64,000 bases of DNA from Alphaproteobacteria bacterium (GTDB lineage Bacteria > Pseudomonadota > Alphaproteobacteria > Rhizobiales > Amorphaceae), in NCBI GenBank assembly GCA_030431335.1, contig JAUIJH010000004.1, forward strand, positions 1-64,000, given 5' to 3'. This document shows, one piece after another, positions 8,972 through 29,325 of the stretch. The first letter of the stretch is position 1; the number at the start of each line of letters is the position of its first letter. The notes under the pieces were generated by a model. It made no database searches. It saw only the letters and a list, made by a program, of their open reading frames with translations, and was not told the DNA's origin. The position numbers and the translations under genes are program-made.

Positions 8972-9000
8972 TTGACTCGACTGGCCCGCAATCGCTTAGT
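8972..9000 (+). promoter_or_regulatory. Possible glmM promoter
   Basis: TTGACT (8972-8977), 17-bp spacer, CTTAGT (8995-9000), ending 25 bp before the glmM ATG. The -10 match is modest. The 133-bp gap holds no other feature. Confidence 0.4.
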
Positions 9001-11449: not shown

Positions 11450-12259
11450 CTACTCGTTGACGCGGTCGAGTCCGATGGTGGCCGCGACGATCACCAGCGC
11501 CACGATGGCGAGCACGATCTGCACGCCCGAGACGGCGGCGACCAGCGGCGTGTTGGTGGTCTGCACCAGGGCGAGCAGCTCCACCGGCAGCGGTCGGTCG
11601 CGGAAGCCGTGAGTGAAGATCGCCACCGACAGGTTGTCGAACCCTTCCACGAAGGTGAAGACGGCGCCGGCGAGGATGGCCGGCAGCAGCAGCGGGAAGG
11701 TGACGGTGGCGAGGGTCTGGAACGGGCTCGCCCCGAGGTTGGCGGAGGCCTCCTCCAGCGCCGGGTCGAGCCGTTGCAGGCGGCTCATGACGGTGCGCAC
11801 CATGACCGCGAGCACGAACACGGCGATCGACAGCGATTGCAGGTAGATCGACGGCCCCACCCCCACCAGCGCGCCGGCGAACAGCACCGCCACGCCGAGC
11901 ACGATGCCCGGCACCATGTGCGGCACCAGCACGAACACCGACAGCGCGGTGGTGCCGGGGAAGCGCCCGCGCACGCACACCAGTGCCGTGGGCACGCCGA
12001 GCAGGATGCACAGCCCCGTGACGGTGATGCCCACCTGCAGGCTGTTCAGCATCGCCTCCACCAGGGCGGTCTCCTCGAACACCTTGGCGTACCAGTCGAG
12101 GGTGAAGCCCACGGGCGGGAAGCTGACATAGGCGCGCGTGTCGAACGAGATGATGACGACGACGATGGACGGCGCCACGAGCAGGATCAGCGCCACGACC
12201 GCGACGGCCAGGATGGCGCCGATGGCGAGCGTGTCGGCGAGCTGGCGGCGGGGGGTCAT
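11450..12259 (-). CDS. ABC transporter permease, PotC-type
   Basis: 269 residues, six predicted membrane helices (first ~13-35). The EAA loop reads EEASANLGASPFQTLATVTFPLLLPAI (first part EEASANLGAS), which contacts the ATPase. It resembles the PotC family of spermidine/putrescine-type importers. Start ATG 12259 overlaps the stop of the first permease by four bases. It works with the permease, ATPase and binding protein encoded just upstream in the same operon. Confidence 0.88.
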   Translation of the reverse strand: MTPRRQLADTLAIGAILAVAVVALILLVAPSIVVVIISFDTRAYVSFPPVGFTLDWYAKVFEETALVEAMLNSLQVGITVTGLCILLGVPTALVCVRGRFPGTTALSVFVLVPHMVPGIVLGVAVLFAGALVGVGPSIYLQSLSIAVFVLAVMVRTVMSRLQRLDPALEEASANLGASPFQTLATVTFPLLLPAILAGAVFTFVEGFDNLSVAIFTHGFRDRPLPVELLALVQTTNTPLVAAVSGVQIVLAIVALVIVAATIGLDRVNE

Positions 12260-13191
12260 GCCTCGCGCCCCTTGGTCCAGCGCGTGAAGTGGTTGGTGAT
12301 GAGCGCGATGAACACGAGGACGACGAGGCACGTCGCCATCAGGATCATGCTGCTGACCGAGCCTTTGCTCCACTCCAGCGAGTAGACCACCTGCTCGTAG
12401 ATCATGGTGGCGGCGTTGAGGTAGTTGCCGCCGCCGAGGAGCTGCGGCACCACGAAGGTGGTGTAGCTGATGGTGAAGACCAGCGCCGCGCCGGTGCCGA
12501 TGCCCGGCACGCTGAGCGGCAGGATGACGTTGACGAGGGTGCCGAGGCGGGAGGCGCCGAGGTTGGCGGACGCCTCGTCGAGCCGGCGGTCGTGCCGGCT
12601 CATCACGGCGATGAGCGGCAGGATCATCACCGGCAGGTGGATCTGCGCCATGCCGATGAGCACGGCCCAGTGCGTGTTGATGATGCGCAGCGGCCGCTCG
12701 ATCAGCCCGATCTCGATCAGCGTGTTGTTGACCAGCCCGCGCCCGCCGAGGATCACCAGCCAGGCGTAGGTGCGCACGATGCCGCTGGTGAGAAGCGGCG
12801 CGATGGTGAGGACGAGGATCAGCCGCCGCACCCACGGCCCGCCGATCAGGAAGAGGTAGGCGACCGGGTAGCCGAAGAACAGGCATAGCAGCATGGTCGA
12901 CAGCGCCAGCACCATGGAGCGCTGGAAGACGGTGAAGGTGAGCGGGTCGGCGAGCGCGGTGCGCACGTAGTCGAGCGTGAAGGTCTGCGAGATGATGGCG
13001 CCGCGCTCCACGGCGATATCGGAGAAGCCGAGCGACAGGAGGATGCCGAACGGGATCACCGCGACCGCGGCGAGCACGACGATGGCCGGCACGGCGGGCC
13101 AGATGCCGCGCCCGGACAGGAGCTTGTCGAGCGTCGCGTCGGTGGCGATCCGCAGCATGCCGCGTGGCGGGAGGGCGGTGGCGCTGCTCAT
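12256..13191 (-). CDS. ABC transporter permease, PotB-type
   Basis: 311 residues. After a ~30-residue cytosolic start, membrane helices begin at IWPAVPAIVVLAAVAVIPFG. The EAA loop is DEASANLGASRLGTLVNVIL. It is PotB-like and probably forms the heterodimeric channel with the PotC-type permease. The ATG at 13191 overlaps the end of the ATPase gene by four bases, and its own end overlaps the next permease, so the three genes are likely translationally coupled. Confidence 0.88.
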   Translation of the reverse strand: MSSATALPPRGMLRIATDATLDKLLSGRGIWPAVPAIVVLAAVAVIPFGILLSLGFSDIAVERGAIISQTFTLDYVRTALADPLTFTVFQRSMVLALSTMLLCLFFGYPVAYLFLIGGPWVRRLILVLTIAPLLTSGIVRTYAWLVILGGRGLVNNTLIEIGLIERPLRIINTHWAVLIGMAQIHLPVMILPLIAVMSRHDRRLDEASANLGASRLGTLVNVILPLSVPGIGTGAALVFTISYTTFVVPQLLGGGNYLNAATMIYEQVVYSLEWSKGSVSSMILMATCLVVLVFIALITNHFTRWTKGREA

Positions 13192-14264
13192 TGCGGCTCG
13201 TACACGGCGCACAGGTTGGGATCGAGGATGCTCAGCGTCACGCGGGTGCCGTCGGCGATCGACCGGCCGCGCTCCTGGCGCATGGCCATGACGCGCACCG
13301 TGCCGCCGCCGTCCGTGGCGACGTGGTACTCCACCAGCGCGCCGATGTTGCGCTGGAAGCCGACGGCGCCCTTGAGCGGCCCGTCCTCGCCGGGGCGGAT
13401 GGCGAGGTTGTGCGGACGCACCATGATGGTCACGTCGCCGGCGCGGTGGCTGGGCGCGCTCTGCCCGTCCGGCAGGTTCACGCGGCCGCCCTCGGCATGG
13501 CTTTGCCAGAAATTGGACGAGCCGATGAAGTCGGCGACGTAGGCGGTGGCGGGGTGGTCGAAGATCTCTTCGGGCGGGGCGAGCTGCTCGATCCGGCCGG
13601 CGCGCATCACGGCGATGCGGTCGGACATGGTGAGCGCCTCCTCCTGGTCGTGGGTGACGAAGATGGCGGTGATGCCGAGCCGCTTGATGAGCTGGCGCAG
13701 GTCCACCTGCATCGCGCCGCGCAGCTTGGCGTCGAGCGCGTTGAAGGGCTCGTCGAGCAGGAGCACGCGCGGCTCCAGCACCAGGACGCGGGCGATGGCG
13801 ACGCGCTGCTGCTGGCCGCCCGACAGTTGCGCCGGGTAGCGGCCGGCGAAGTCCGACAGCGCCACGGTCTCCAGCGCCCTGGCGACGCGCGCGGCGATGT
13901 CGGCCTTGGCCATGCCGCGCATGCGCAGGCCGTAAGCGACGTTCTTGGCGACGGTGAGGTGGGGGAACAGCGCGTAGCTCTGGAACACCACGCCGACGGG
14001 GCGGCGGTTGACCGGCACGCGCACCGTGTCGGCGCCGTCGATGGTGATGGTGCCGGCATCGGGCGCCCAGAAGCCGGCGATGCAGCGCAACAGGGTGGTC
14101 TTGCCGCAGCCGGAGGGGCCGAGCAGGGTGACGATCTCGCCCTCGGCGACATCGAGCGAGCAACGGTCGAGGACCGTCAGCGGGCCGAAGCGTTTGGTCA
14201 CGCCGCCGATGCTGAGCACCGGCGGCGTGAGGAGATCGGCGTTCGCGTCGACCGGTTCGTGCAT
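13188..14264 (-). CDS. ABC transporter ATP-binding protein, PotA-type
   Basis: 358 residues. Walker A GPSGCGKTT (~50-57), Q-loop VVFQSYALFP, signature LSGGQQQR, Walker B VLLLDEPFNALD, H-loop VTHDQEEAL. The C-terminal ~110 residues form a TOBE regulatory domain (IMVRPHNLAIRPGE). It powers the import system encoded by the same operon. The start at 14264 shares one base with the stop of the binding-protein gene. Confidence 0.93.
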   Translation of the reverse strand: MHEPVDANADLLTPPVLSIGGVTKRFGPLTVLDRCSLDVAEGEIVTLLGPSGCGKTTLLRCIAGFWAPDAGTITIDGADTVRVPVNRRPVGVVFQSYALFPHLTVAKNVAYGLRMRGMAKADIAARVARALETVALSDFAGRYPAQLSGGQQQRVAIARVLVLEPRVLLLDEPFNALDAKLRGAMQVDLRQLIKRLGITAIFVTHDQEEALTMSDRIAVMRAGRIEQLAPPEEIFDHPATAYVADFIGSSNFWQSHAEGGRVNLPDGQSAPSHRAGDVTIMVRPHNLAIRPGEDGPLKGAVGFQRNIGALVEYHVATDGGGTVRVMAMRQERGRSIADGTRVTLSILDPNLCAVYEPQ

Positions 14265-15313
14265 CAACCGGCGAACATCCGGTCGAAGGTGGCCACCGTG
14301 TCGCCGCGCAGCGGGGCGATGGTCGGCCAGTCGAGCGAGGTCATGGTGGCGAGCTGCTCGGGGGTGTCGGGCACGTAGGGCTTGGCCGCTTCCGGCACGG
14401 CGATGCCCTTCACCACGGTGCCGAAATAGTAGGGCGCGCCGCCGAGGAACTCCTGCGAGGAGGTCTCCAGCATGATGTCGGCGAACTCGTGCACCAGCTC
14501 GCCGGTGCCTTCGGCGGAGTTGACGAACTGCACGATGTTGGTCGGCAGCATCAGCGGTCCGGGGCCGGTGATCTTGACGTAGGAGATGGGCAGGCCCGCC
14601 GCCGCCGCGAGCGCGGTGTTGACGTGCCACAGCGGGGCGATGTCGATCTCGCCGCGCTCGATCATCTGCTGCAGGAGGGGCGGGCTGCGGCCGACCAGCG
14701 GGTCGAGCTCCTGCCACTTGCCGAGGGCGAACTCCATGTCGTCCTGCGGGTGGTCGAAGGCGGCGTTGGTGGCCGCCAGCACGCCGAGGCCGAGGTTGGA
14801 CTGCGGCCGGCACATGCCGATGCGGCCGTTGTAGGCACCGCTCCACAGGTCGGTCCAGGTGGCGGGGGGCGTGTCGATGACGTCGGCGTTGTAGGCGATG
14901 CCGATGCCCTCGAAGGCGACGGGGCAGCCCACGTCGTAGCCGAAGGGCGGGAACACCGGGTCGAGGTTGGCGGCGTTCGGGATCTTGGAGAGGTCGAGCG
15001 GCACCAGCACGTCCTCGGCGAGGGCGTTGATGATGGCGGGCGAGCCCATGACGGCGAGGTCGTAGGGCGAGTTGCCGCGCGCGGCCTTGATCTGCGCGAG
15101 CGCCTCGGCCGACAGGCCGCCGATGACGCGCAGCGAGACGCCCGGATGGCGGCGGCCGAGCTCTTCGCCGGCGCGCTTCAGGGGGTCGTCCTGCTCGTTG
15201 CCGTAGCCGATCATCACGAGTTCGCGAGTTTGCGCCCGGAGGACGGTCGGGCACGCAAGCGCGGCGGTTGTCCCCAACAGTCCGCCAACAACAGTTCGCC
15301 GTGAAAGCGTCAT
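14264..15313 (-). CDS. ABC transporter substrate-binding protein, PotD-like
   Basis: 349 residues. The N-terminus TLSRRTVVGGLLGTTAALA with cut near LRAQT looks like a Tat-type signal (SRRxVV). The mature part has ELVMIGYGNEQDD and AFEGIGIAYNADVI, typical of PotD/AfuA-like extracellular binding proteins. AGGAGAAG lies just before ATG 15313. It is the first gene of the leftward operon SBP-ATPase-permease-permease-decarboxylase-like. The substrate is unknown: polyamine-type sequence features also occur in carriers of opines, phosphonates and organic acids. Confidence 0.85.
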   Translation of the reverse strand: MTLSRRTVVGGLLGTTAALACPTVLRAQTRELVMIGYGNEQDDPLKRAGEELGRRHPGVSLRVIGGLSAEALAQIKAARGNSPYDLAVMGSPAIINALAEDVLVPLDLSKIPNAANLDPVFPPFGYDVGCPVAFEGIGIAYNADVIDTPPATWTDLWSGAYNGRIGMCRPQSNLGLGVLAATNAAFDHPQDDMEFALGKWQELDPLVGRSPPLLQQMIERGEIDIAPLWHVNTALAAAAGLPISYVKITGPGPLMLPTNIVQFVNSAEGTGELVHEFADIMLETSSQEFLGGAPYYFGTVVKGIAVPEAAKPYVPDTPEQLATMTSLDWPTIAPLRGDTVATFDRMFAG

Positions 15314-15487
15314 GGCCTTCTTCTCCTGTTCGAAGCTGCCCGGCCGGCGTGCGTCGTCGACCGGCAGCTTGACCTGCCGAACTTTCATTTTTGAGACGAA
15401 AGAAGATTTGCGCAAGCCAAAATTTAAGCCTTTTGCGAATTGCTTAAGTTGTAGTCGCCCGTGCTCATTTATTTGGCCGACCGCCAA
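15314..15487. promoter_or_regulatory. AT-rich promoter region of the transporter operon
   Basis: 174 bp between the binding-protein start and the deoR stop, clearly more AT-rich than its surroundings (15381-15480). It contains CTTTC (15382-15386) and GAAAG (15398-15402) as an inverted pair and a TTAAGCnnTTCGCAAAAGGCTTAA-like patch on the leftward strand. I expect the operon promoter here, but I cannot fix the -35/-10 with confidence. Confidence 0.45.
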
Positions 15488-16324
15488 TCATGCGAGCAGC
15501 ACCTCGACACCGGCGCTTTCCAGCGCCTGCACGTCGGCCGGGGCGGCGCCGGCGTCGGTGACGAGCAGGGTCACCTCGTCGAAGCCGGCGATGCGCGCGC
15601 CCGCCACATGGCCGATCTTGCCATGGTCGCCCAGCATCACCACCCGGCGGGCGGAGGCGATCATCGCGTGCTTGATCTCGGCTTCCTCGAAATTGGAGTT
15701 GGTGAAGCCGCGTTCCGCATCGATCCCGGCGCAGCACAGGTAGGCGCAATCGGCGTTGATCTGCTGCAGGACCAGGGTGCCGAACGGCGGGATCAGCGAG
15801 TGGGAGCGGCTGTTGCGGCCGCTGTTCTTCATCCGCCCGCCCGTCACGACGACGGAAACGCCTGGGTGGCGGTCGAGCGCGATGGCGATATCGAGGCAGC
15901 TGGTGACGACGACGATGTCGCGCAGGTCCGGCGCGAGGGCCATGGCCATCGCGAGCGTGGTGGTGCCGGCGTCGAGGATGACGGTCTCGCCGTCGCGCAC
16001 CATGCGGGCGGCCATGGCGCCGATGCGCTCCTTCTCCACCTCGAAATTCTGGCTGAGCAGATCGAGCGGGCGCTCGAAGCGGGCCGGGCGCACCGGCATC
16101 GCGCCGCCGCGGATGCGCCGCAGCAGCTGCCGCCGCTCCAGGGTGTCGAGATCGCTGCGGATGGTGACCGCCGACACGCCGAGCGCCGCCGACAGCTTGT
16201 TGACCTCCACGACGCGATCGCGGCGCAGCGCCTCCAGGATCCGCTCGTGACGCGGGATCAATGTCTGGTTGCCCGCGTCGTCATTGATTGGTGTCGGTTC
16301 CATCATGGGCTTGCGTTTCTTCAT
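15488..16324 (-). CDS. DeoR-family transcriptional regulator
   Basis: 278 residues. The N-terminal winged helix reads KLSAALGVSAVTIRSDLDTLERR (helix-turn-helix near 44-62), with the family RRIRGGA stretch. The C-terminal DeoR sensor domain has DAGTTTLAMA and ends DEVTLLVTDAG. These domains bind sugar phosphates. It lies between the leftward transporter operon and the rightward SIS-PfkB run and faces the latter, so it likely controls one or both in response to a phosphorylated intermediate made by the PfkB kinase. An alternative start at Met7/Met8 is possible. Confidence 0.9.
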   Translation of the reverse strand: MKKRKPMMEPTPINDDAGNQTLIPRHERILEALRRDRVVEVNKLSAALGVSAVTIRSDLDTLERRQLLRRIRGGAMPVRPARFERPLDLLSQNFEVEKERIGAMAARMVRDGETVILDAGTTTLAMAMALAPDLRDIVVVTSCLDIAIALDRHPGVSVVVTGGRMKNSGRNSRSHSLIPPFGTLVLQQINADCAYLCCAGIDAERGFTNSNFEEAEIKHAMIASARRVVMLGDHGKIGHVAGARIAGFDEVTLLVTDAGAAPADVQALESAGVEVLLA

Positions 16325-16405: not shown

Positions 16406-17524
16406 ATGATGACGATACAAGAGCGGCTCAAGACGATCCGGCGCGAGTCCTCCAGCGATGCCCCGGGCGACCCGGAGCGGTTTCGCCGCGTGGCGCTCAC
16501 CAACACCGAGATGATGACGCAGGGCGACGCGATCCGCGACACCCTGGAAACCAACGCGGCCGCCCTCGCCGCCATCGGCGCCGACCTCAAGGATCGCAAG
16601 ATCCGGCGCATCGTCATGGTGGGTTGCGGCGATTCGTGGATTTCCGGCTTCGGCGTGCGCCACGCGGTCGAAAAGCTGCTCGGGGCGGTGTGCGAACCCT
16701 ACGAGGCGTTCGACTTCGCCAACTACGGGCTCGGCACCATCGACGCCGAGACGGTGGTGATCGGCCTCTCCTCCAGCGGCAAGACCGAGCCGGTGATGGA
16801 CGGGCTCGCCGCGTCGGCGGAGCTGGGCGCCTACGTCGTGGGCCTGTCCAACACGCTCGGCTCGCCGCTGATGGAGCAGTTCCCCGGCGCGCTCCACATC
16901 AAGGCGACGCGCGGCGGCTGGCCCACCCAGTCGAGCACGGCGGCGATGGCGCTGAAGCTGGCCCTGGCGCTCGCCATCGCCGAGGCCAAGGGCATCGGCG
17001 AGCGCTCCCCGCTGGCGGCCGCCCTCAAGAGCCTGCCGGATGTGGTCGACAAGGTGGCCAACGCCTTCTACGAGCCCGCCCGCGCCCTGGGCGAGCGCCT
17101 CGCCCGCGCCGATTTCATCCTCCTCGCCGGTGCCGGGCCGCACTTCGCGCCGGCCGCCTTCGGTGCCGCCAAGCTGAAGGAGCTGGCGCCGATCCATGCC
17201 AGCGCCTTCCCGCTGGAGGAATACCACCACTACCGCACCCAGAAGGCGGGCGACCCGATGTTCCTCGTCGCGCCGGACGCGGCGAGCCACCTTCGCGCGC
17301 TGGAAACGGCGCTGATGAGCCGCGGCAGCGAGGCGTTCTGCATCGCGCTGGTGCCCGAGGGCGAGACCGAGATCGCCGAGATCGCCGACGTCGCGTGGCA
17401 TCTGCCGCACGTGCCGGAGGACGTGATGCCGATCGTCTACAGCGTGCCGCTGCACCTGTTCGGCTACCACGTGGCGATGGCGCGCGATGCCGTGGGGCTG
17501 GGCGCGCCGCACCTGGGCGGCTGA
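16406..17524 (+). CDS. SIS-domain sugar isomerase/deglycase (AgaS/FrlB/GlmS-like)
   Basis: 372 residues from ATG 16406 (or the next codon, 16409, which sits better behind AGGAGA). Two SIS domains: the first with GCGDSWISG and GLSSSGKTEP (phosphosugar binding), the second with LAGAGPHFAPA and FPLEEYHHY. Relatives interconvert amino-sugar phosphates or cleave Amadori phosphates (fructose-amino acid 6-phosphates). Paired with the following PfkB kinase the order resembles kinase-plus-deglycase systems, but the substrate cannot be read from sequence. It is the first gene of a seven-gene run and faces deoR. Confidence 0.82.
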   Translation: MMTIQERLKTIRRESSSDAPGDPERFRRVALTNTEMMTQGDAIRDTLETNAAALAAIGADLKDRKIRRIVMVGCGDSWISGFGVRHAVEKLLGAVCEPYEAFDFANYGLGTIDAETVVIGLSSSGKTEPVMDGLAASAELGAYVVGLSNTLGSPLMEQFPGALHIKATRGGWPTQSSTAAMALKLALALAIAEAKGIGERSPLAAALKSLPDVVDKVANAFYEPARALGERLARADFILLAGAGPHFAPAAFGAAKLKELAPIHASAFPLEEYHHYRTQKAGDPMFLVAPDAASHLRALETALMSRGSEAFCIALVPEGETEIAEIADVAWHLPHVPEDVMPIVYSVPLHLFGYHVAMARDAVGLGAPHLGG

Positions 17525-17525
17525 G

Positions 17526-18557
17526 GTGACGCCCGATCTCGTCACCATCGGCGGGCTCACCGTCGACAACGTGATCGCCGCCGACGGCACCGTGGGCCTC
17601 GCCAAGGCGGGCGGCAACGGTGCCTATTCGGCGGTGGGCGCGCTGTTCTTCGCCGAGCGGGTCGGGCTCGTCAGCCAGGGGGTCGCCTCCTATCCGCGCG
17701 CCGTGATCGAGCGGCTCGCGGCGGGGGGCATCGACCTTGCCGGCGTGGAGTGGATCGAGGCGAAGCTCAACGCCTGCCACTGGTTCATCTACGACGCGCA
17801 GGGCTACCGCGAGGAGCGGATGCAGTCGACGCCGGAGGAGCTCGCCGCCGCCGGCTTCCCCACCGACCGGCTGACCCCGGCCGAGGTGGCGGCCTGGTGC
17901 GACTACCTGCGCGCCCGCAACAGGCCGGGCGAGATCAGCTATTCGCAGTTCCGCGTGGTCAACCCGATCCGGCCCGAGCGGGTGCCGGACGCGTTCCTGA
18001 AGGCGCGGGGCGTCCACCTCGCGCCGTGCCAGCCGGGCGTGCTGGTGGCGATGCTCGACCGCTTCGCCGGCTCAGGGGCGGTGGTGACGGCCGATCCCGG
18101 CTGGCAACTCCTCGCGCTGAGCTTCGATGACCTTTCGCCGATCCTCGCCCGGCTCGACGCCTTCCTGCCGAGCGAGGTGGAGCTCGACGCGCTGCTGCCC
18201 GGCGAGGCGCCGGCGAGCGCGCTGGCGATCCTCGCGCGCCATTGCCCGGGCGCCGTCGCGGTCAAGCTGGGGCCCAAGGGGGTGCTGGTGCACGACCGCG
18301 CGCGCGGCGAGGCCGTGGCCGTGCCCGCCTCGCCGGCCCAAACGCTCGACCCCACCGGCGCGGGCGACGCCTTCTGCGGCGGCTTCCTCGCCGGACTGGT
18401 GGAGACCGGCGACCCCGTCATGGCGGCGCGGTTCGGCGCCGTCTCGGCGAGCCGCATCGTGGAGCATTTCGGCGCCGACGGTGCCATGCCCATCGACCGA
18501 ACCGACGCCCGCCGCCGCCTTGCAGCCTTTGACCGACCGGAGATCCCTGCCCGATGA
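17526..18557 (+). CDS. PfkB-family carbohydrate kinase
   Basis: 343 residues from GTG 17526, two bases after the SIS stop; an in-frame ATG at 17487 would overlap SIS and lacks family sequence. GGNGAYSAVGA near residue 35 and DPTGAGDAFCGGFLAG (catalytic Asp, residues ~278-293) are the two PfkB signatures. The family phosphorylates sugars and nucleosides. It presumably makes the phosphosugar used by the neighbouring SIS enzyme and sensed by DeoR. Its end overlaps the next gene by four bases. Confidence 0.88.
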   Translation: MTPDLVTIGGLTVDNVIAADGTVGLAKAGGNGAYSAVGALFFAERVGLVSQGVASYPRAVIERLAAGGIDLAGVEWIEAKLNACHWFIYDAQGYREERMQSTPEELAAAGFPTDRLTPAEVAAWCDYLRARNRPGEISYSQFRVVNPIRPERVPDAFLKARGVHLAPCQPGVLVAMLDRFAGSGAVVTADPGWQLLALSFDDLSPILARLDAFLPSEVELDALLPGEAPASALAILARHCPGAVAVKLGPKGVLVHDRARGEAVAVPASPAQTLDPTGAGDAFCGGFLAGLVETGDPVMAARFGAVSASRIVEHFGADGAMPIDRTDARRRLAAFDRPEIPAR

Positions 18558-19339
18558 GCCTTGCCATCTTCCGCGAAAAACCCCTGGTGATCGCGGCGCT
18601 GCACCTGCCCGATTTCGCGCTGTCGCGGCATCGCTCCATGGCCTGGTTCGAGGACTACGCCATCGCCAACGCGCGCGTCTTCGCCGAGGCCGGCATCCCC
18701 TACCTCAAGCTGCAGGACCAGACCAAGACGGACGGTCCCGCCGCGCCCGACACCATCGCGATGACGGCCGCCCTCGCCCGGCTGATCCGCGCCGAGGTGC
18801 CGGGCATCGGGCTCGGCATCATCGTGGAGGCGCACGACCCGGCGGCGGCGCTGGCGCTCGCCCACGCGTCGGGGGCCGATTTCGTGCGGCTCAAGGTCTA
18901 TGTCGGCGGCGCGATGACGGCGCAGGGCCCGCGCTACGGCCTCGGCGCCGCCGCCCGCGCCTTCCGCGCCGCGCTGGAGCGCCCCGACATCGCCATCCTC
19001 GCCGACGTGCACGACCGCACGGTGGTGCCGCTGTCGGCCGAGAGCCAGCCCTTCGCCGCCGAGTGGGCGGTGAAGACGGGGGCGGACGGGCTGATCATCA
19101 CCGGCTCCACCTTCCCCGACACGCTGGCGCGCATCGAGGCGGTGCGCGCGCACGGCATCAAGCGGCCGATCCTGATCGGCGGCAGCGTCGACGCGGACAA
19201 TATCGGCCAGGCGCTGGGCGCGGCGGACGGCGTCGTCGTCAGTTCCGCGATCATGGCGAAATCGGCCGGCAAGGACGACCTGGTGCGCTGGGACGTCGAC
19301 CGCTGCCGGCGCCTGATGGACGCGGCGCGATGCCCGTAG
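18554..19339 (+). CDS. BtpA/SgcQ-family TIM-barrel protein
   Basis: 261 residues. ALHLPDF near the start, YLKLQDQTK, FVRLKVYVGG and LIGGSVDADN fit the BtpA/SgcQ family. Cyanobacterial BtpA is linked to photosystem I stability, but bacterial members such as SgcQ sit in sugar/nucleoside operons and are thought to be catabolic enzymes of unknown reaction. Position between a PfkB kinase and PuuE-like enzymes argues for the catabolic version. Start overlaps PfkB by four bases; its end overlaps the next gene by ten. Confidence 0.82.
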   Translation: MSLAIFREKPLVIAALHLPDFALSRHRSMAWFEDYAIANARVFAEAGIPYLKLQDQTKTDGPAAPDTIAMTAALARLIRAEVPGIGLGIIVEAHDPAAALALAHASGADFVRLKVYVGGAMTAQGPRYGLGAAARAFRAALERPDIAILADVHDRTVVPLSAESQPFAAEWAVKTGADGLIITGSTFPDTLARIEAVRAHGIKRPILIGGSVDADNIGQALGAADGVVVSSAIMAKSAGKDDLVRWDVDRCRRLMDAARCP

Positions 19340-20268
19340 GCCCGCGCGATTTCGCGGGCTATCGGGGCGGTGCGCCGGCCATTCGCTGGCCGGGCGGGGC
19401 GAGGCTGGCGGTGTCGCTGGTGGTCAACGTGGAGGAGGGCGCGGAGCTTTCCATCGGCGATGGCGACGAGGCGAACGAGGCGATCTACGAGGCGGTGGAG
19501 CGCGTCGACGGGGCGCGTGACCTGTGCATGGAGAGCCATTTCGAGTACGGGCCGCGCGCCGGCTGGCCGCGCATCCGGTCCGTGCTCGCGGAGCGCGGTG
19601 TGCGCGCCACGCTCAACGCCTGCGGCCGGGCGCTGCGGGCGACGCCCTGGATCGCCGCCGAGGCGGTGGCGGACGGGCACGAGGTGGCCGCCCACGGCTG
19701 GCGCTGGGAGCGGCACGTGCACATGGACGAGGCCACCGAGCGCCGCGCCATCGCCATGACCGTGGCCGCCATCGCCGAGACGGCCGGCACCCCGCCGCTC
19801 GGCTGGCACACCCGCTCGGCGACGTCGCAGCGCACGCGCGACCTCATCGTGGAGCACGGCGGCTTCCTCTACGACAGCGACGCCTATAACGACGACCTGC
19901 CCTACACCGTCGATACCGATGCGGGGCCGCACGTGGTGTTGCCCTATGCCTTCGACACCAACGACATGCGCTTCCAGAACCGCGGCGGGTTCGTGTTCGG
20001 CGCCGATTTCGCGCGCTATTGCGGCGATGCCTTCGACCGGCTGTACGCCGAGGGCGCGGCGGCGCCCAGGATGTTGTCGGTGGGGCTGCACACGCGCATG
20101 ATCGGCCGGCCGGCGCGCATCGGCGGGCTGGAGGCCTTCCTCGACCACGCGATGGCCCACGAGGGCGTGTGGTTCGCGACCCGCGCCGAGATCGCCCACG
20201 CCTGGCGCGCGGGGCTGGGCCTGCCGCCGTTCGCGCCGCGTCCGACCCCGGCGGCGTTCGCGCCATGA
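19330..20268 (+). CDS. PuuE-like polysaccharide deacetylase-fold protein (copy 1)
   Basis: 312 residues. WPGGARLAVSLVVNVEEGAE matches the N-terminus of PuuE, the metal-independent allantoinase with a NodB fold, in which EEG replaces the metal-binding TFDD. HFEYGPRAGWPRI and GHEVAAHGWRWERHVHMDE follow the same plan. PuuE hydrolyses the hydantoin ring of allantoin; whether this copy does so is unknown. It overlaps the BtpA gene by ten bases and the second copy by four. Confidence 0.82.
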   Translation: MPVGPRDFAGYRGGAPAIRWPGGARLAVSLVVNVEEGAELSIGDGDEANEAIYEAVERVDGARDLCMESHFEYGPRAGWPRIRSVLAERGVRATLNACGRALRATPWIAAEAVADGHEVAAHGWRWERHVHMDEATERRAIAMTVAAIAETAGTPPLGWHTRSATSQRTRDLIVEHGGFLYDSDAYNDDLPYTVDTDAGPHVVLPYAFDTNDMRFQNRGGFVFGADFARYCGDAFDRLYAEGAAAPRMLSVGLHTRMIGRPARIGGLEAFLDHAMAHEGVWFATRAEIAHAWRAGLGLPPFAPRPTPAAFAP

Positions 20269-21149
20269 GCCGCGATCTCCTCGGCTACGGCGGCGCCTGG
20301 CCGCAGTTCACGTGGCCGAACGGGGCGCGGCTCGCCGTGTCGGTGGTGGTCAACGTGGAGGAGGGCGCCGAGATGCAGGTGCTCGACGGCGACCCCCGCA
20401 GCGAGCGCATCGGCGAGGTGATCTCGGTGGTGCCGGAGGGCCGCGCCGATCCGGGCCAGGCGCAGATCTTCGCCTATGGCAGCCGCGCCGGCGTCTGGCG
20501 CATGGCCGACGCGCTGCGCTGCCACGAGATCCCGGCGACGCTGTTCGTCTGCGGCCGGGCCGCCGAGCGCGCCGCGCCGGTGCTGAAGATGCTCGCCGCC
20601 GACGGCCACGAGGCCGCCTCGCACGGCTACCTGTGGCGCGCCCACGCCGAATACGACAGCGCCGAGGCCGAGGCGGCCGACCTCGACCGCACCGCCGCCG
20701 CCATAAAGGCCGCGACGGGGACGGCGCCGGTGGGCTTCTTCTGCCGCGGCGCGGAGAGCCCGTGGACCCGCGCGCTGCTGGCCGAGCGCGGCTACCTCTA
20801 TACGTCCAACGGCTTCGACGACGACCTGCCCTACCGCGACCCGTCCGGCCTGCTGGTCGTGCCCTACGCGCTCGACGCCAACGACATGAAGTTCTTCCAC
20901 CCCAACGGCTTCGTGCGGGCGCGCGAGATGGTGGAGTACGTCGCCGACGCGCTCGACGTGCTGGAGGCGGAGGCGGCGCGCGGTTGGCCGCGGCTCCTCA
21001 ACATCGGCTTCCACCTGCGCATCGTCGGGCGGCCGGGGCGGTTCAAGGCGTTCAGCGGCGTGCTCGACGAGCTGGCGCGGCGGCGCGGGCGGCTGTGGAT
21101 CGCGCGCCGCGCCGACATCGCCCGCGCCTTCGCCCAGGCGGTGCCGTGA
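20265..21149 (+). CDS. PuuE-like polysaccharide deacetylase-fold protein (copy 2)
   Basis: 294 residues, a diverged tandem paralogue of the preceding gene: WPNGARLAVSVVVNVEEGAE, AYGSRAGVWRMADAL, GHEAASHGYLWRAHAEYDSAE, and DDDLPYRDPSG match copy 1 and PuuE. Differences include GFFCRGAESPWTR where copy 1 has GWHTRSATSQRTR. Retention of both, with overlapping starts, suggests either a heteromeric enzyme or two steps on related rings. The GTGA overlap with the racemase implies coupling. Confidence 0.82.
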   Translation: MSRDLLGYGGAWPQFTWPNGARLAVSVVVNVEEGAEMQVLDGDPRSERIGEVISVVPEGRADPGQAQIFAYGSRAGVWRMADALRCHEIPATLFVCGRAAERAAPVLKMLAADGHEAASHGYLWRAHAEYDSAEAEAADLDRTAAAIKAATGTAPVGFFCRGAESPWTRALLAERGYLYTSNGFDDDLPYRDPSGLLVVPYALDANDMKFFHPNGFVRAREMVEYVADALDVLEAEAARGWPRLLNIGFHLRIVGRPGRFKAFSGVLDELARRRGRLWIARRADIARAFAQAVP

Positions 21150-21799
21150 ACATCGCGCTGGTCAATCCCAACACCAACGCCGGGACGACGGCGACGATGG
21201 TCGCCATCGCGCGGGAGGCGGCCGGCGAGGGCGTGACCATCGAGGGGCGCACGGCGGGGTTTGGCGTGCCGCTGATCACCGATACTGTGGCGCTCGCCGT
21301 CGCGGCCGAGGCGGTGCTCGCCCTCGCCGCCGGTCTCGCGGGGTTCGACCGGGTGATCGTGGCCGCGTTCGGCGATCCGGGCGTGACGGCGCTGCGGCAG
21401 CGGCTCGCCGTTCCGGTGATCGGCATCGCCGAGGCGGCGATGGCCGACGCGGCGGCGGGCGGGCGCGCGTTCGCGGTCGTCACCACCACGCCGGACCTGG
21501 TGGGCGCCATCGCGGCGCGGGCGGCGCAGCTCGGCCACGCGCGCTTCTGCGGCACATGGTTGACGCCCGGCGATCCCCTGGCGGCGATGGCCGACCCCGC
21601 CCGCCTGGCGGACGCGCTGGGCGAGGCGGCGCGGACGGCCATCGCCGAGGGCGGAGCGGAGGCGATCATCATCGGCGGCGGCCCGTTGGCGCTGGCGGCC
21701 CGCCGCCTCGCCGGCACGCTGCCGGTGCCCCTCATCGAGCCGGTGCCGGCGGCGGTGCGCCGCGCCCTGGCGCACGACAGAAAGGCCGCCACGCCATGA
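21146..21799 (+). CDS. Asp/Glu/hydantoin racemase-family protein
   Basis: 217 residues, GTG start overlapping the previous stop. NIALVNPNTNAGTTATM at the N-terminus and ALAAGLAGFDRVIVAAFGDPG, GGAEAIIIGGGPLA are characteristic. The usual two catalytic cysteines (one after VxxACFGDP, one after GCAGM) appear as VAAFGDPG and IIIGGGPLA, with no Cys at either place, so classical racemase chemistry is doubtful. Family members include hydantoin and allantoin racemases, which fits the adjacent PuuE-like genes. Confidence 0.8.
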   Translation: MNIALVNPNTNAGTTATMVAIAREAAGEGVTIEGRTAGFGVPLITDTVALAVAAEAVLALAAGLAGFDRVIVAAFGDPGVTALRQRLAVPVIGIAEAAMADAAAGGRAFAVVTTTPDLVGAIAARAAQLGHARFCGTWLTPGDPLAAMADPARLADALGEAARTAIAEGGAEAIIIGGGPLALAARRLAGTLPVPLIEPVPAAVRRALAHDRKAATP

Positions 21800-23292
21800 C
21801 GCAGACGCTCGTCACCGCCGACCGCATCCTCACCGGCTTCGCGCCCGACGGCAGCGCCCAGATCGAGGCCGACGCCGCGATCCTGATCGAGGGCGAGACC
21901 ATCGCCGCCATCGGCCCGGCCGACACGCTGCGCCGCGCCCACCCCGATGCGCGGGCCGTCGGCGGGCGCGGGCGCGTGGCGATGCCGGGCCTCGTCAACG
22001 CGCACCACCACGTGGGGCTGACGCCGTTCCAGCTCGGCGCGCGCGACCAGCCGCTGGAGCTGTGGTTCGCCGAGCGCCTGGCGATGCGCGACGTCGACCC
22101 GCGGCTCGACACGCTCTACGCCGCCTTCGAGATGGTCGCCTCGGGCGTGACCACGGTGCAGCACCTGCACAGCCGCGCGCCGGGCAACACGGACGCGGTG
22201 GTGGACCGCGCGGCGCAGATCGTCGGCGCCTATGGCGAGATCGGCATGCGCGCGTCCTACTCCTTCGCGCTGCGCGATCAGAACCGCATGATCTACGAGG
22301 CCGACGAGGCGTTCGTGGCCATGCTGCCGGACGCGCTGAAGGCGCCGGTCGCGGCGTATCTGGGTGCGTTCGCGCTGTCGCTGGCCGATCAGGTGGCGCT
22401 GTTCCACGCGCTCAGGGCGCGCTTTGCGGGCAACCCGCGCGCGGCGATCCAGATCGCGCCGGCGAACCTGCACTGGCTGTCGGACGCGGCGCTGGAGAGC
22501 GCGGCAAGGATGGCGCAGGAGACCGGCGCGCCGATGCACATGCACCTCCTGGAGACGCCCTACCAGATGGAGTATGCGCGCCGGCGCACGGGCGGCTCGG
22601 CGGTGGCGGCGATCGACCGCTTCGGTCTCCTGGGGCCGCAGACGACCATCGGCCACGGCGTGTGGATGACGCCGGACGACCACGCGCTGCTGGCCGAGCG
22701 CGGCGCGTGCCTGTGCCACAATTGCTCGTCCAACCTGCGCCTGAAGAGCGGCACGCTCGACCTCAACCGCGCGCTGGCGACCGGCGCGCCGGTGGCGCTC
22801 GGGATGGACGAGGCGGGCCTCAACGACGACCGCGACATGCTGCAGGAAATGCGCCTGGCGCTGACGCTGCATCGGCCGCCGGGCCACGACGCGCCCTGCC
22901 CCACGGCGGCCCAGATTCTTCGCATGGCCACCGAGCACGGCGCGGCAACGACGCCGTTTGCCGGCACAATCGGCGCGCTGGCGCCGGGCCGCCTCGCCGA
23001 CATCGTGCTCCTCGACTGGGAGCGCGTCACCCATCCCTATCAGGATCCGGCGATCGCGCTGACCGACATCATCGTGCGCCGCGCCAAGAGCGACGCGGTG
23101 GAGACGGTGCTGGTCGGCGGCGACGTGATCTACCACCAGGGGCGGTTCGCCGGCGTCGACCGGGGCGAGACGCTGCGCGAGATCGCGGGGGCGCTCAACC
23201 GGCCTGACCGGCCGGACGAGGCCGCCCGGCGGCGCCTGGCCAAGGACCTGCTGGAGCCGGTCGGCGCGTTCTACAAGGGCTGGTTCGGGTAG
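21796..23292 (+). CDS. Amidohydrolase (AtzA/TrzN/8-oxoguanine-deaminase-like)
   Basis: 498 residues. Metal-binding motifs of the subtype with one metal are present: NAHHHVG (~63-69), MHMHLLETPY, IGHGVWMTPDD and GMDEAGLNDD. Related enzymes deaminate or dechlorinate nitrogen heterocycles, including guanine, 8-oxoguanine and s-triazines. It is the last gene of the seven-gene run and likely performs a hydrolytic deamination in the same pathway. Start overlaps the racemase by four bases. Confidence 0.85.
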   Translation: MTQTLVTADRILTGFAPDGSAQIEADAAILIEGETIAAIGPADTLRRAHPDARAVGGRGRVAMPGLVNAHHHVGLTPFQLGARDQPLELWFAERLAMRDVDPRLDTLYAAFEMVASGVTTVQHLHSRAPGNTDAVVDRAAQIVGAYGEIGMRASYSFALRDQNRMIYEADEAFVAMLPDALKAPVAAYLGAFALSLADQVALFHALRARFAGNPRAAIQIAPANLHWLSDAALESAARMAQETGAPMHMHLLETPYQMEYARRRTGGSAVAAIDRFGLLGPQTTIGHGVWMTPDDHALLAERGACLCHNCSSNLRLKSGTLDLNRALATGAPVALGMDEAGLNDDRDMLQEMRLALTLHRPPGHDAPCPTAAQILRMATEHGAATTPFAGTIGALAPGRLADIVLLDWERVTHPYQDPAIALTDIIVRRAKSDAVETVLVGGDVIYHQGRFAGVDRGETLREIAGALNRPDRPDEAARRRLAKDLLEPVGAFYKGWFG

Positions 23293-23295
23293 GGC

Positions 23296-24054
23296 TCAGG
23301 CCGCGGCGTCGGGGCCGGCGAGCCAGGCGGCGATGTTGTTCCACAGCGGGCCGTAGCCGGCCCAGTCGACGAAGGCGGGCGGACCCCAGTGCGGCCCGCA
23401 ATCGGACGCGAAGATGGCGCTGCGCCCCTTGCCGACCTCGCGCACGGCGATGAACGGGTCGCCGCAGCAGCTCGCCACCAGGTGCGCGTCGGGCCGCAGC
23501 GCGGCGCGGTTGTAGCCGAGGAAGTGCGGCCAGTCCGTCAGCCCCGCGACGATGGGGTGCGCGGGATCGACGATGTCGACGCCGACGCCGGCGGGCTGCT
23601 CGCGCCGGTCGTCGCCGGCCTCGAGGATCACCGGCATCACCGCCTCGACGGGGCTGTTCTTGTAGTTGGCCTTGGCCTGGATGCCCTGGAAGGTGAGGTA
23701 GCCGCCCACCATCAGGAAGCCGCCGCCGCCTTCGACGAAATCGCGGATCAGCTCGAGCCGGTTGGGGCTCGGCTGCGAGCGGGCGAAGGTGCGGTCGGGC
23801 ATCAGCAGCGTGTTGGTGCCGATATCGCTGAGGATCACCACGTCGAAGGCGTCGATGGCGGCGCGCTCGAAGGGGAAGGCGTCGGCGGCGATGTGGCTCG
23901 GCATGTAGGTGACCTCGCAGCCGCCCGCCCGCAGCGCCGCGATCATCTCGGTGCCGCCCTCGTGGTAGGACGACACGTCGAAGGAATCGAAGCCCTTGGT
24001 GTGGACGCTGTGGGTCATCCACGATTCGCCGGCCATGAGAATCCTGATGGGCAT
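23296..24054 (-). CDS. Glutamine-amidotransferase-like (GATase1-like) protein
   Basis: 252 residues from ATG 24054, which has GAGAAAG upstream; an in-frame ATG at 24081 adds nine residues. IRILMAGESWMTHSVHTKGFDSF opens the protein (first part IRILMAGESW), matching the cytosolic GATase1-like family often named putative glutamine amidotransferase. A Ser-Cys-Cys stretch (VASCCGDPF) lies late, but I see no clear Cys-His-Glu triad of a working glutaminase. It converges on the amidohydrolase with a 3-bp gap. Function unknown. The 115-bp gap upstream to mprF shows only a GC-rich stretch. Confidence 0.72.
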   Translation of the reverse strand: MPIRILMAGESWMTHSVHTKGFDSFDVSSYHEGGTEMIAALRAGGCEVTYMPSHIAADAFPFERAAIDAFDVVILSDIGTNTLLMPDRTFARSQPSPNRLELIRDFVEGGGGFLMVGGYLTFQGIQAKANYKNSPVEAVMPVILEAGDDRREQPAGVGVDIVDPAHPIVAGLTDWPHFLGYNRAALRPDAHLVASCCGDPFIAVREVGKGRSAIFASDCGPHWGPPAFVDWAGYGPLWNNIAAWLAGPDAAA

Positions 24055-24169
24055 GGTGCTGTTCTTTCTCGTGTCGCTCATTCGCGGGGGCGGGCGCCCC
24101 GGACCGATCGGCCGGCCAGTCCGATGCTAGCCCGATGCCAGCGCGGCAGGAAAGGCGGCGCGGTGGCGA

Positions 24170-27751: not shown

Positions 27752-28246
27752 ATGATCCCCAACCTCACCCTAACGGTCAACGGCGACCGCCACGAGGTCC
27801 ACCTGGACGATGCGCGGCCGACCCTCCTCGACGTCCTGCGCGAGCGCCTCGGGCTCACGGGCACCAAGAAGGGCTGCGACCGCGGCCAGTGCGGCGCCTG
27901 CACGGTCCTGGTCGACGGACGCCGGGTCAACAGCTGCCTGACGCTGGCCATCAGCGTCGACGGCGCCGAGGTGACGACCATCGAGGGCCTCGCCAGGGGC
28001 GGCACGCTGCACCCCGTCCAGGCGGCCTTCGTGGAGAACGACGCGTTCCAGTGCGGCTTCTGCACGCCGGGGCAGATCATGAGCGCGGTGGGCCTGATCG
28101 CCGAGGGCGAGGCGGGCGACGACGCGGAGCGCATCCGCGAGGGCATGAGCGGCAACCTGTGCCGCTGCGCCGCCTATCCCGGCATCACCGAAGCCGTCCG
28201 CGACGCGCGCCAGCGCCTTGCACAGAACGAACGGGAGAGCGTATGA
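27752..28246 (+). CDS. Molybdenum hydroxylase [2Fe-2S] subunit (CoxS/PaoA-type)
   Basis: 164 residues from ATG 27752 (GGAGGG seven bases upstream). A plant-type ferredoxin cluster is bound by Cys42, 47, 50 and 62 ([10 protein letters not shown]), a second by Cys101, 104, 137 and 139 (QCGFCTPG and LCRCAAYPG). It carries electrons from the molybdenum centre to FAD. Unlike E. coli PaoA there is no clear Tat signal, so a cytosolic location is more likely. The end overlaps the FAD subunit by four bases. Confidence 0.94.
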
Positions 28247-29325
28247 ACCTCTTCGATTATGTCCGTCCCGCATCCGTCGCGGAGGCGGTGGCGGCGGCAT
28301 CGGCGCCCGGCGCGGCCTACCTCGCCGGCGGCACCAACCTGTTGGACCTGATGAAGGCCGGCACCCATCGCCCCGCCCGCCTCGTCGACATCACGCGCCT
28401 GCCCGGCCTCGATGCGATCGAGGTGCTGCCGGACGGCGCGATCCGCATCGGCGCGCTGGTGACGAACGCCGACCTGGCGCGCGATCCGGCGTTCGTCGCG
28501 GCCGCGCCGGCGGTGGCCGAGGCGCTGCTGTCCGGCGCCTCGCCGCAGCTGCGCAACGCCGCGACCGTGGGCGGCAACGTGATGCAGCGCACCCGCTGCG
28601 CCTACTTCTACGACCCCGACAGCGCCTGCAATCGCCGCGAACCGGGCGCCGGCTGCGACGCCCACGGCGGCGACACGCGCGGCCAGGCCGTGCTCGGCTG
28701 GAGCGAGGCCTGCATCGCCACCCACCCGTCCGATTTCTGCGTGCCGCTGGTGGCGCTCGACGCCGTGGTGGAGATCGCCGGGGCGGACGGCGCGCGGGAG
28801 GTGGCGCTGGAGGCCTTCCACAACCTGCCGGGAGACGATCCGGCCAACGAGACCGTGCTGCGCCCCGGCGAGCTGATCACGGCCATCCGCCTGCCGGCCG
28901 AGGCCGCGCGGTTCAAGGCGCACGCGCGCTATCTGAAGCTGCGCGAGCGCACGTCCTACGCCTTCGCGCTGGTGTCTGCGGCGGCCTCCCTCGCCATCGA
29001 GGACGGCGCGATCGTCGAGGCGCGGCTCGCGCTGGGTGCGGTCGCCGCCAAGCCGTGGCGCGCCCGCGCGGCCGAGCCGCACCTCGTCGGCGTCAGCGTC
29101 ACGGCGGCGGGCTTCGAGGAGGTCGCCCGCAGGGCCGCCGAGGCCGCGCTGCAGGAGGCCCGCCCCTCCGGCGACAATGCCCGCAAGATCGAGCTTGCCA
29201 TGCGGGTCGCCACCCGCGCCCTCGTCCTCGCCGCGGCCGGAAGTCCGGCGCGGATGCCGGCGCTGCCGGGCAGCGTGTTCGCGCCCGTTCCCACCCTCAC
29301 TGCCGCAGGTGACGTCCATGGCTGA
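28243..29325 (+). CDS. Molybdenum hydroxylase FAD-binding subunit with extra [4Fe-4S] motif (CoxM/PaoB-type)
   Basis: 360 residues. FAD-binding signatures are LAGGTNLLDLMK (~27-38) and RNAATVGGNVMQ (~104-115). An insertion at ~119-166 holds Cys119, 129, 138, 157 and 166 (RCAYFYDPDSACN, GAGCDAHGG, SEACIATHPSDFC), as in YagS/PaoB where four of these bind an additional [4Fe-4S] cluster. This places the enzyme with the PaoABC aldehyde oxidoreductase branch and not with CO dehydrogenase or xanthine dehydrogenase. It overlaps the large subunit by eight bases. Confidence 0.92.
   Translation: MNLFDYVRPASVAEAVAAASAPGAAYLAGGTNLLDLMKAGTHRPARLVDITRLPGLDAIEVLPDGAIRIGALVTNADLARDPAFVAAAPAVAEALLSGASPQLRNAATVGGNVMQRTRCAYFYDPDSACNRREPGAGCDAHGGDTRGQAVLGWSEACIATHPSDFCVPLVALDAVVEIAGADGAREVALEAFHNLPGDDPANETVLRPGELITAIRLPAEAARFKAHARYLKLRERTSYAFALVSAAASLAIEDGAIVEARLALGAVAAKPWRARAAEPHLVGVSVTAAGFEEVARRAAEAALQEARPSGDNARKIELAMRVATRALVLAAAGSPARMPALPGSVFAPVPTLTAAGDVHG

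Follow-up and report, generated by a model that had tools for sequence, protein, structure and literature searches.

The window analyzed here, a 64,000-nucleotide stretch of contig JAUIJH010000004.1 from an alphaproteobacterium of the family Amorphaceae, contains a block of seven intact, co-directional genes arranged in series on the forward strand (16406-23292), as delineated from open reading frames and Pfam domains. The block encodes a SIS-domain protein, a PfkB-family sugar kinase, a BtpA-family protein, two PuuE-like proteins (PuuE1 and PuuE2), a member of the Asp/Glu/hydantoin racemase family (Rac) and an amidohydrolase (Ami), all of which score above the curated cut-offs of their Pfam families. 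A 1-base gap separates the SIS and PfkB genes, and the following junctions overlap by 4, 10, 4, 4, and 4 bases. The block is divergent from the genes for a DeoR-family regulator and a PotABCD-like ATP-binding cassette (ABC) importer, making twelve genes in total. An earlier note on this DNA, based on the sequence alone, had named the seven gene families, described most of the genes as overlapping by 4-10 bases, and placed a DeoR regulator and an ABC importer next to them; the coordinates, frames, Pfam families and overlaps (five of six junctions) agree with that description, and both neighbors are present. No Rfam riboswitch family was detected at gathering score between positions 9000 and 32000.

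The twelve genes form one conserved genetic unit rather than a chance assembly, since they are collinear in two related loci and recur in altered order in two further families of the class. The two collinear loci were recovered by a search of genome contigs with BtpA, and both contain the block at 61-82% identity (tblastn). Roseibacterium sp. SDUM158017 (L003) harbors all twelve genes in the order of the window, and a metagenome-assembled genome of the Rhodobacteraceae (L004) preserves this order on a contig that ends within the amidohydrolase gene. In a genome of the same genus as the source (G004, locus L031), the PuuE pair is absent from the block, and a PuuE-like gene with 32% identity and a second amidohydrolase gene are located beside the importer. 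In G029 (L032), the gene order is altered, a second SIS gene is present, and the binding-protein gene is located in stretch L091. The cluster was also found in six genomes of one family, namely G168 (L033), G425 (L081), G427 (L080), G439 (L079), G440 (L078) and G441 (L082). Gene calls for L032 and L033 were obtained with locus-trained models, and tblastn was used to annotate L079, L094 and L095. Together with the window, L003, L004, L031 and L032, these make up 11 loci, in all of which SIS and PfkB genes adjoin a BtpA gene of the window's subfamily, termed here the DRT type after its residues D154-R155-T156. Contigs end inside the SIS gene in L079 and L080; in all nine loci whose contig continues past this gene, the importer genes and Ami (at least 52% identity) are present. 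Relatives of PuuE1 (73%), PuuE2 (68%), Ami (61%) and the substrate-binding protein (40%) were additionally found in G427 near the end of a different contig (L105). In the sample of the class as a whole, the cluster is present in 2 of 385 genomes, with the source genome counted.

The SIS-domain protein (16406-17524, 372 aa; PF01380, 79.6 bits) resembles the isomerase domain of GlmS (1moq, E = 6.5e-27). Among the models compared, it scores 112.8 bits with GlmS, 65.0 with NagB-II and 40.8 with the fructosamine-6-phosphate deglycase FrlB, all below cut-off. The Lys, Glu and His residues of the GlmS isomerase site are conserved in the alignment; the C-terminal Lys of GlmS lies outside the aligned part, and the phosphate loop is variable among clusters. 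A second SIS gene occurs within the importer part of L033 (15314-17256), L078, L082 and L091, accompanied by a second PfkB gene except in L091; its active-site stretch in L033 and L091 (LEEF.H and IEEF.H) resembles that of the SIS protein adjoining BtpA. The PfkB-family kinase (17526-18557, 343 aa, with a GTG start and an alternative ATG at 17487; PF00294, 76.3 bits) contains the DPTGAGD motif, and the GAGD catalytic signature, found as DPTGAGDAFCGGF in the window protein, is preserved in all 11 kinases compared, including that of L059 and leaving out L079.

The kinase gene overlaps by 4 bases the gene for the BtpA-family protein (18554-19339, 261 aa), which belongs to PF03437 (91 bits, cut-off 30) and reaches 91.0 bits with the NCBIfam model TIGR00259 (cut-off 153.4). 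It keeps P19, G47, G88, F110, R112, G125, R138, D178, G184 and P205, each of which is present in 37 or 38 of 38 aligned rows. In a tree of these 38 sequences, the ten rows of the window type grouped with the BtpA protein of L059 (support 100/97, with a warning of long branches from the program). K114 and D154-R155-T156 occur in all 11 of these rows and in none of 26 other rows; a twelfth SIS-linked row, from Streptosporangium, is without them. This Streptosporangium BtpA is encoded on a plasmid (L137, 4884-8074), where its gene stands between those for an APH-type phosphotransferase and a SIS protein. Genes linked to 7-deazaguanine (folE, queE and that for 6-carboxytetrahydropterin synthase) are located only a few genes away, and it is possible that BtpA and SIS help to make a 7-deazapurine glycoside at that locus. 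The source genome also encodes a second BtpA protein of another subfamily (G000:C64; L034, 9567-10364; 242.5 bits), accompanied by a DeoR regulator, an FGGY kinase and a sugar ABC importer.

The genomic context of BtpA was also assessed beyond the DRT type. The earlier note had suggested that the context in the window could reveal BtpA chemistry. BtpA proteins were found in bacteria and archaea, in the control genomes and in Haloferax. In the other subfamilies, a PfkB or FGGY kinase is encoded at most three genes away from BtpA in 25 of 26 loci, which are not all from different genomes (G024 contributes three and G615 two); the sole exception is sgc of E. coli, which has a phosphotransferase system (PTS). 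The kinases of L039, L041 and L043 match weakly (25-26%), and the reference kinases were drawn from the same loci. L059 likewise has a sugar kinase within three genes. In four of the resulting 27 loci (L034, L041, L042 and L050), BtpA was recovered by tblastn, in L042 as a match of 107 codons, and the kinase adjoins it in all four. A carbohydrate kinase also adjoins BtpA on two Haloferax plasmids and one Agrobacterium vitis plasmid. The BtpA context proved informative. Because a sugar kinase is so regularly close to BtpA in the other subfamilies, the simplest reading of the gene neighborhoods is that a phosphorylated sugar or glycoside is the probable substrate of BtpA.

A sequence search found no solved relative of BtpA, and no BtpA relative was confirmed in viral contigs, which were scanned with one pattern. 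The fold was assessed by comparing profiles one against one with those of 17 proteins from E. coli. The best matches were TrpA (65.6%) and NanE (40.2%), or 25.3% and 41.5%, respectively, with SgcQ as the master sequence; HisA and Rpe reached 8-17%, and the further TIM barrels ThiE, ThiG, UlaD, UlaE, NanA and FrlC, as well as PsuK, FrlB and PsuG, remained below 1%. When the window protein serves as master, TrpA and NanE align with the first half of BtpA, and HisA and Rpe with the part containing the GG...SS loops. These weak links suggest that BtpA is probably a phosphate-binding TIM barrel.

The remaining four genes of the block encode potential ring hydrolases and a racemase-family protein. 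PuuE1 (19330-20268, 312 aa; Polysacc_deac_1, 50.3 bits) and PuuE2 (20265-21149, 294 aa; 53.0 bits) match the PuuE structure 3cl6 with E = 6.8e-83 and 1.3e-64, respectively. The earlier note associated PuuE with cyclic ureides. The two proteins score 317.7 and 251.5 bits with the PuuE allantoinase model TIGR03212, below its cut-off of 424.6, and the source genome has another PuuE above the cut-off (G000:C219, 521.7 bits), so that a reading of the pair as allantoinases is not supported. Both carry NVEEGAE, in contrast to NYEEGGE in the C219 copy and in 3cl6; N[VFI]EEGAE was found in 12 of the 13 copies compared from clusters or relatives, the PuuE1 of L032 not matching the search string. PuuE1 and PuuE2 are likely small-ring amide hydrolases with a substrate other than allantoin.

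Rac (21146-21799, 217 aa; PF01177, 124.6 bits) has Ala and Gly in place of both cysteines of 3qvj, which we take to be catalytic in hydantoin and allantoin racemases. Both are absent from all six cluster members compared, whereas the Burkholderia relative in L053 has both; it should be noted that 5lfd, an allantoin racemase of solved structure, also lacks the first cysteine in this alignment but keeps the second. With both residues missing, the racemase role assigned to this protein by the earlier note was rejected, and racemization by two cysteines is unlikely as the function of Rac. A branch of the racemase family without these cysteines, with AFGDP and GGPL or GAPL motifs, comprises Rac and proteins in L057 and L052, and it also occurs near PuuE1 relatives without sugar genes. 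Ami (21796-23292, 498 aa; PF01979, 146.2 bits) is a COG0402-type amidohydrolase or deaminase. Its nearest models are TRZ/ATZ hydrolase, 5'-deoxyadenosine deaminase, N-ethylammeline chlorohydrolase and 8-oxoguanine deaminase, and it remains below every cut-off among the matches listed (25 of 32 families). The HxH, HxxE, H and D motifs, presumably the COG0402 metal site, are kept in all nine aligned sequences, seven of them from clusters or L105. The nearest models of Ami are N-heterocycle deaminases and hydrolases, a point in favor of the reading proposed below.

On the reverse strand, the regulator gene (15488-16324; PF00455, 145.8 bits; PF08220, 49.3 bits) is nearest to the AgaR model (171.8 bits, cut-off 260). 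It is followed by the genes for the substrate-binding protein (14264-15313; PF13416, 59.4 bits), the ABC ATPase (13188-14264; PF00005, 134.1 bits) and two permeases, one PotB-like (12256-13191; PF00528, 36.4 bits; PotB, 162.9 bits, cut-off 348) and one PotC-like (11450-12259; PF00528, 41.2 bits; PotC, 123.8 bits, cut-off 326). The closest solved structures of the binding protein are spermidine/putrescine-binding, with weak matches to the PhnS and PotD models, and the ATPase, which shows 72-75% identity in L003, L004 and L031 by tblastn, scores 362.5 bits with PhnT2 and 353.3 with PotA, below both cut-offs. The region between the DeoR and SIS genes contains an element common to the relatives, CTTGCG and AATGACAA. 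CTTGCG is located at 16310-16315 (forward strand) and was found in four of four DeoR-SIS regions compared; a second copy upstream of the binding-protein gene (15411-15416, reverse strand) has counterparts in four of four upstream regions. Within strict gene bounds it is present in seven of these eight regions, which come from related loci (shuffled sequences contain it in 1-7% each); in the eighth it falls within the opening codons of the longest frame for DeoR. Because the element overlaps these codons, translation of the regulator probably begins at an inner Met near 16306 rather than the start of the longest frame at 16324.

The two halves of the block also occur separately. On Methylobacterium and Salipiger plasmids, ABC importers accompany relatives of PuuE1 (58-74%) and Ami (49-50%), with no SIS, PfkB or BtpA gene in the stretches read, and relatives of PuuE1 and Rac occur likewise without these three genes in the Allorhizobium stretch read. 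Ami relatives (49-52%) without PuuE1 are encoded on plasmids of Burkholderia, Klebsiella, Sodalis and Leptolyngbya. Conversely, plasmid pMHb of Mesorhizobium huakuii (L059) carries a PfkB-SIS-BtpA triad without relatives of Ami or PuuE, adjoining a Bmp-type importer (PF02608, PnrA-like), a type known for nucleosides. As a single instance, this importer favors a nucleoside-like substrate. Since the ring-hydrolase genes and the triad each occur alone, the block in the window looks like a phospho-glycoside module joined to a ring-hydrolase module.

The association of PuuE1 with DRT-type BtpA extends beyond the cluster itself. A PuuE1 relative (57-73% identity) was found in all eight other genomes with this BtpA type that were searched, including those where it is encoded outside the cluster. 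In the class sample, a PuuE1 relative (E ≤ 1e-90) is present in 14 of 385 genomes, the source genome and G168 included, and thus in 12 of 383 without DRT-type BtpA, where the class-wide BtpA search scored at most six candidates per genome. Fisher's test gives 1e-11 for the association, or 4.8e-5 with one genome per family; the latter is the fairer value, since six of the eight genomes belong to one family. In L103 and L104 (G168 and G441), the PuuE1 relative (68-69%) is located away from the BtpA cluster, within another ABC cluster. The latter also encodes a further PuuE-like protein, a member of the racemase family and an amidohydrolase, and it has two tandem genes, one of which, when tested, proved arylmalonate-decarboxylase-like; this cluster possibly encodes a cyclic imide pathway.

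We compared the block with the nearest known systems. In pseudouridine breakdown by psuK-psuG of E. coli, as described in PMC9247573, a kinase phosphorylates the nucleoside and a second enzyme splits the phosphorylated glycoside. The order of a kinase step followed by cleavage of a phosphorylated glycoside is that proposed below for the window. Unlike the window, the psuK-psuG stretch read is without SIS, BtpA, amidohydrolase and PuuE genes, and PsuG shows no profile similarity to BtpA (0.2-0.5% probability). PsuK itself belongs to the PfkB family. The sgcXBCQAER genes of E. coli encode the BtpA-family protein SgcQ as well as an epimerase, a PTS and a regulator, but SgcQ is of another BtpA subfamily, the PTS stands in place of PfkB, SgcX (with a Zn-dependent exopeptidase domain) in place of Ami and PuuE, and no SIS gene is present in the stretch read; the sugar of this operon was termed unknown in 2017 (PMC5797941). 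Ureide pathways with PuuE and allantoin racemase share with the window the adjoining PuuE-like and hydantoin-racemase-family proteins, but differ in that the window PuuE copies fall below the allantoinase cut-off, the racemase cysteines are missing and sugar genes are present. BtpA is a widespread and poorly understood family, for which one described role was found: stabilization of glutamyl-tRNA reductase for chlorophyll synthesis by the cyanobacterial protein (review, PMC11449065). The latter is of the same Pfam family as the window BtpA, which scores 76.7 bits with the cyanobacterial model (cut-off 400). Among the literature matches listed, in open PubMed Central text, no title or abstract start describes a pathway with exactly this gene set; the families are known and, as far as these matches show, their combination and its substrate are undescribed.

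We tentatively favor a reading of the block as a scavenging operon with a kinase-first route for a nucleoside-like compound, in which a sugar is N-linked to a heterocycle or cyclic ureide, while giving it somewhat less than an even chance. According to this reading, the PotABCD-like importer would take up the intact compound, PfkB would phosphorylate its sugar moiety, and BtpA would split or isomerize the sugar-nitrogen link of the phosphorylated glycoside. The GlmS-like SIS protein would then convert the leftover phosphosugar to a form of central metabolism, Ami would deaminate or open the ring, and PuuE1 and PuuE2 would hydrolyze cyclic amide or imide bonds in the resulting ureide. DeoR would sense a phosphosugar and control both divergent units. 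The assignment of the sugar-nitrogen step to BtpA is more doubtful than the reading as a whole. The earlier note had proposed the breakdown of an N-glycosylated ureide or modified nucleoside; the conserved unit and the joining of a sugar-phosphate half to a ring-hydrolase half partly support this, and its racemase, allantoinase and Amadori parts are not supported. The DeoR regulator, nearest to AgaR at a score below cut-off, is supported as well, and the phosphosugar suggested as its ligand is a prediction.

Several observations weigh against the favored reading. Cluster membership is incomplete among the nine loci (Rac in six, and PuuE1, PuuE2 and DeoR in five each, where one of the PuuE2 proteins, in L093, is just 49% identical to PuuE2 and 47% to PuuE1), and the cluster is patchy, occurring in one of seven other genomes of the genus and six of 23 of the family of G168. 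The genomes behind the PuuE1 association are not independent, and the class background scored at most five candidates per genome whereas the eight-genome search scored all. The fold links of BtpA are weak. The best models for the importer are those for polyamines and 2-aminoethylphosphonate, not nucleosides, and all are below cut-off. The nucleoside link comes from one distant triad, that of L059, whose BtpA is 30% identical and on a long branch, and a second triad of this kind was not found in 297 genomes of the family of G031 (E ≤ 1e-40, a search with no positive control). Finally, each half might serve a substrate of its own under common control, as the ring-hydrolase genes occur elsewhere without sugar genes.

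This last point is developed in an alternative that separates a sugar or amino-sugar function (SIS, PfkB, BtpA and the importer) from an unrelated ureide or imide function (Ami, Rac, PuuE1 and PuuE2) under one regulator. We consider it unlikely: although stretches L051, L052 and L057 contain ring-hydrolase genes without SIS, PfkB and BtpA, and L059 the triad without relatives of Ami or PuuE, the halves are kept together with changed order in several families, their reading frames overlap in the window, and a PuuE1 relative is present in the genome even where it is absent from the cluster. There is a similarly small chance that the genes form an Amadori-type operon for fructosyl-amines, with phosphorylation of the sugar-amine by PfkB, release of hexose phosphate and amine by a SIS deglycase, epimerization or isomerization of the phosphosugar by BtpA, and degradation of the freed cyclic amine by Ami and the PuuE-like enzymes. 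A kinase and a SIS-type deglycase are the plan of frlB/frlD in the E. coli operon for fructoselysine and psicoselysine, with FrlC annotated as an epimerase, and the importer is PotABCD-like, as are the opine importers of Ti plasmids. However, the SIS protein is closer to GlmS and NagB-II than to FrlB, falling far below the FrlB cut-off of 430 bits, its active-site stretch LEEYHH is unlike SGEFRH of FrlB, and PfkB reaches 33.9 bits with the fructoselysine 6-kinase (FrlD) model against a cut-off of 247; moreover, frl is without ring hydrolases and FrlC is unrelated to BtpA by profile (0.1%). The Amadori plan that the earlier note had seen in the PfkB and SIS pair is thereby reduced to a loose likeness.

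Less probable still is amino-sugar catabolism under AgaR-like control, with the PuuE-like proteins as N-deacylases, SIS as a NagB-II/AgaS-like deaminase or isomerase, and Ami removing an N-carbamoyl or cyclic carbamate group. The nearest models of SIS (GlmS and NagB-II) and DeoR (AgaR), all below cut-off, fit this proposal, and the wider family of PuuE-like proteins consists of carbohydrate deacetylases. Nevertheless, PuuE1 and PuuE2 match PuuE much more strongly than deacetylases and carry HGWRW/HGYLW, whereas metal-dependent relatives carry HxxxH, and Ami falls in the class of N-heterocycle hydrolases. According to a paper on a relative (PMC3084791), the cavity of PuuE is reduced to suit a small cyclic substrate and, in contrast to most of the family, has no metal bound in it.

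Genes close to the twelve were also inspected. A GATase1-like gene (23296-24081, reverse strand; PF07090, 317 bits) is convergent with the block, 3 bases past the Ami stop codon. Its homologs (41-45%) are located two genes from BtpA in L040, L086 and L087 and seven genes away in L085, accompanied by phosphotriesterase-family genes, and an annotated glutamine amidotransferase of A. vitis has a similar setting. After the importer genes, a reading frame of 325 aa (10390-11367, reverse strand) appears by eye to be NMT1/4,5-dihydroxyphthalate-decarboxylase-like and has no Pfam or NCBIfam match. A three-subunit molybdenum hydroxylase (2Fe-2S, FAD and molybdopterin; 27752-31570, forward strand) is encoded close to the operon. 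Membership of the GATase1-like and NMT1-like genes in the system is not supported: neither was matched at E ≤ 1e-6 in the 12 stretches that surround eight other clusters. The same holds for the hydroxylase, whose medium and large subunits were likewise unmatched. An open frame of 2293 codons (31645-38526, reverse strand) matches nothing in Pfam at E ≤ 0.001 and may represent either a miscalled frame or a large protein.

The cluster provides a limited number of defined BtpA partners, a binding protein for ligand screening and a BtpA subfamily signature, which make the BtpA reaction directly testable. We propose, as a speculation, that DRT-type BtpA is a new lyase or Amadori-type isomerase acting on kinase-phosphorylated N-glycosides, by which bacteria could dismantle nucleoside-like compounds beyond the reach of ordinary nucleoside hydrolases and phosphorylases, and that BtpA at large is a phosphoglycoside-processing family acting after a sugar kinase or PTS; a phosphoglycoside enzyme of this kind would span the breadth of the family, from haloarchaea to sgc of E. 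coli. If the favored reading is true, the window encodes a kinase-first route for N-linked sugar compounds of an undescribed class.

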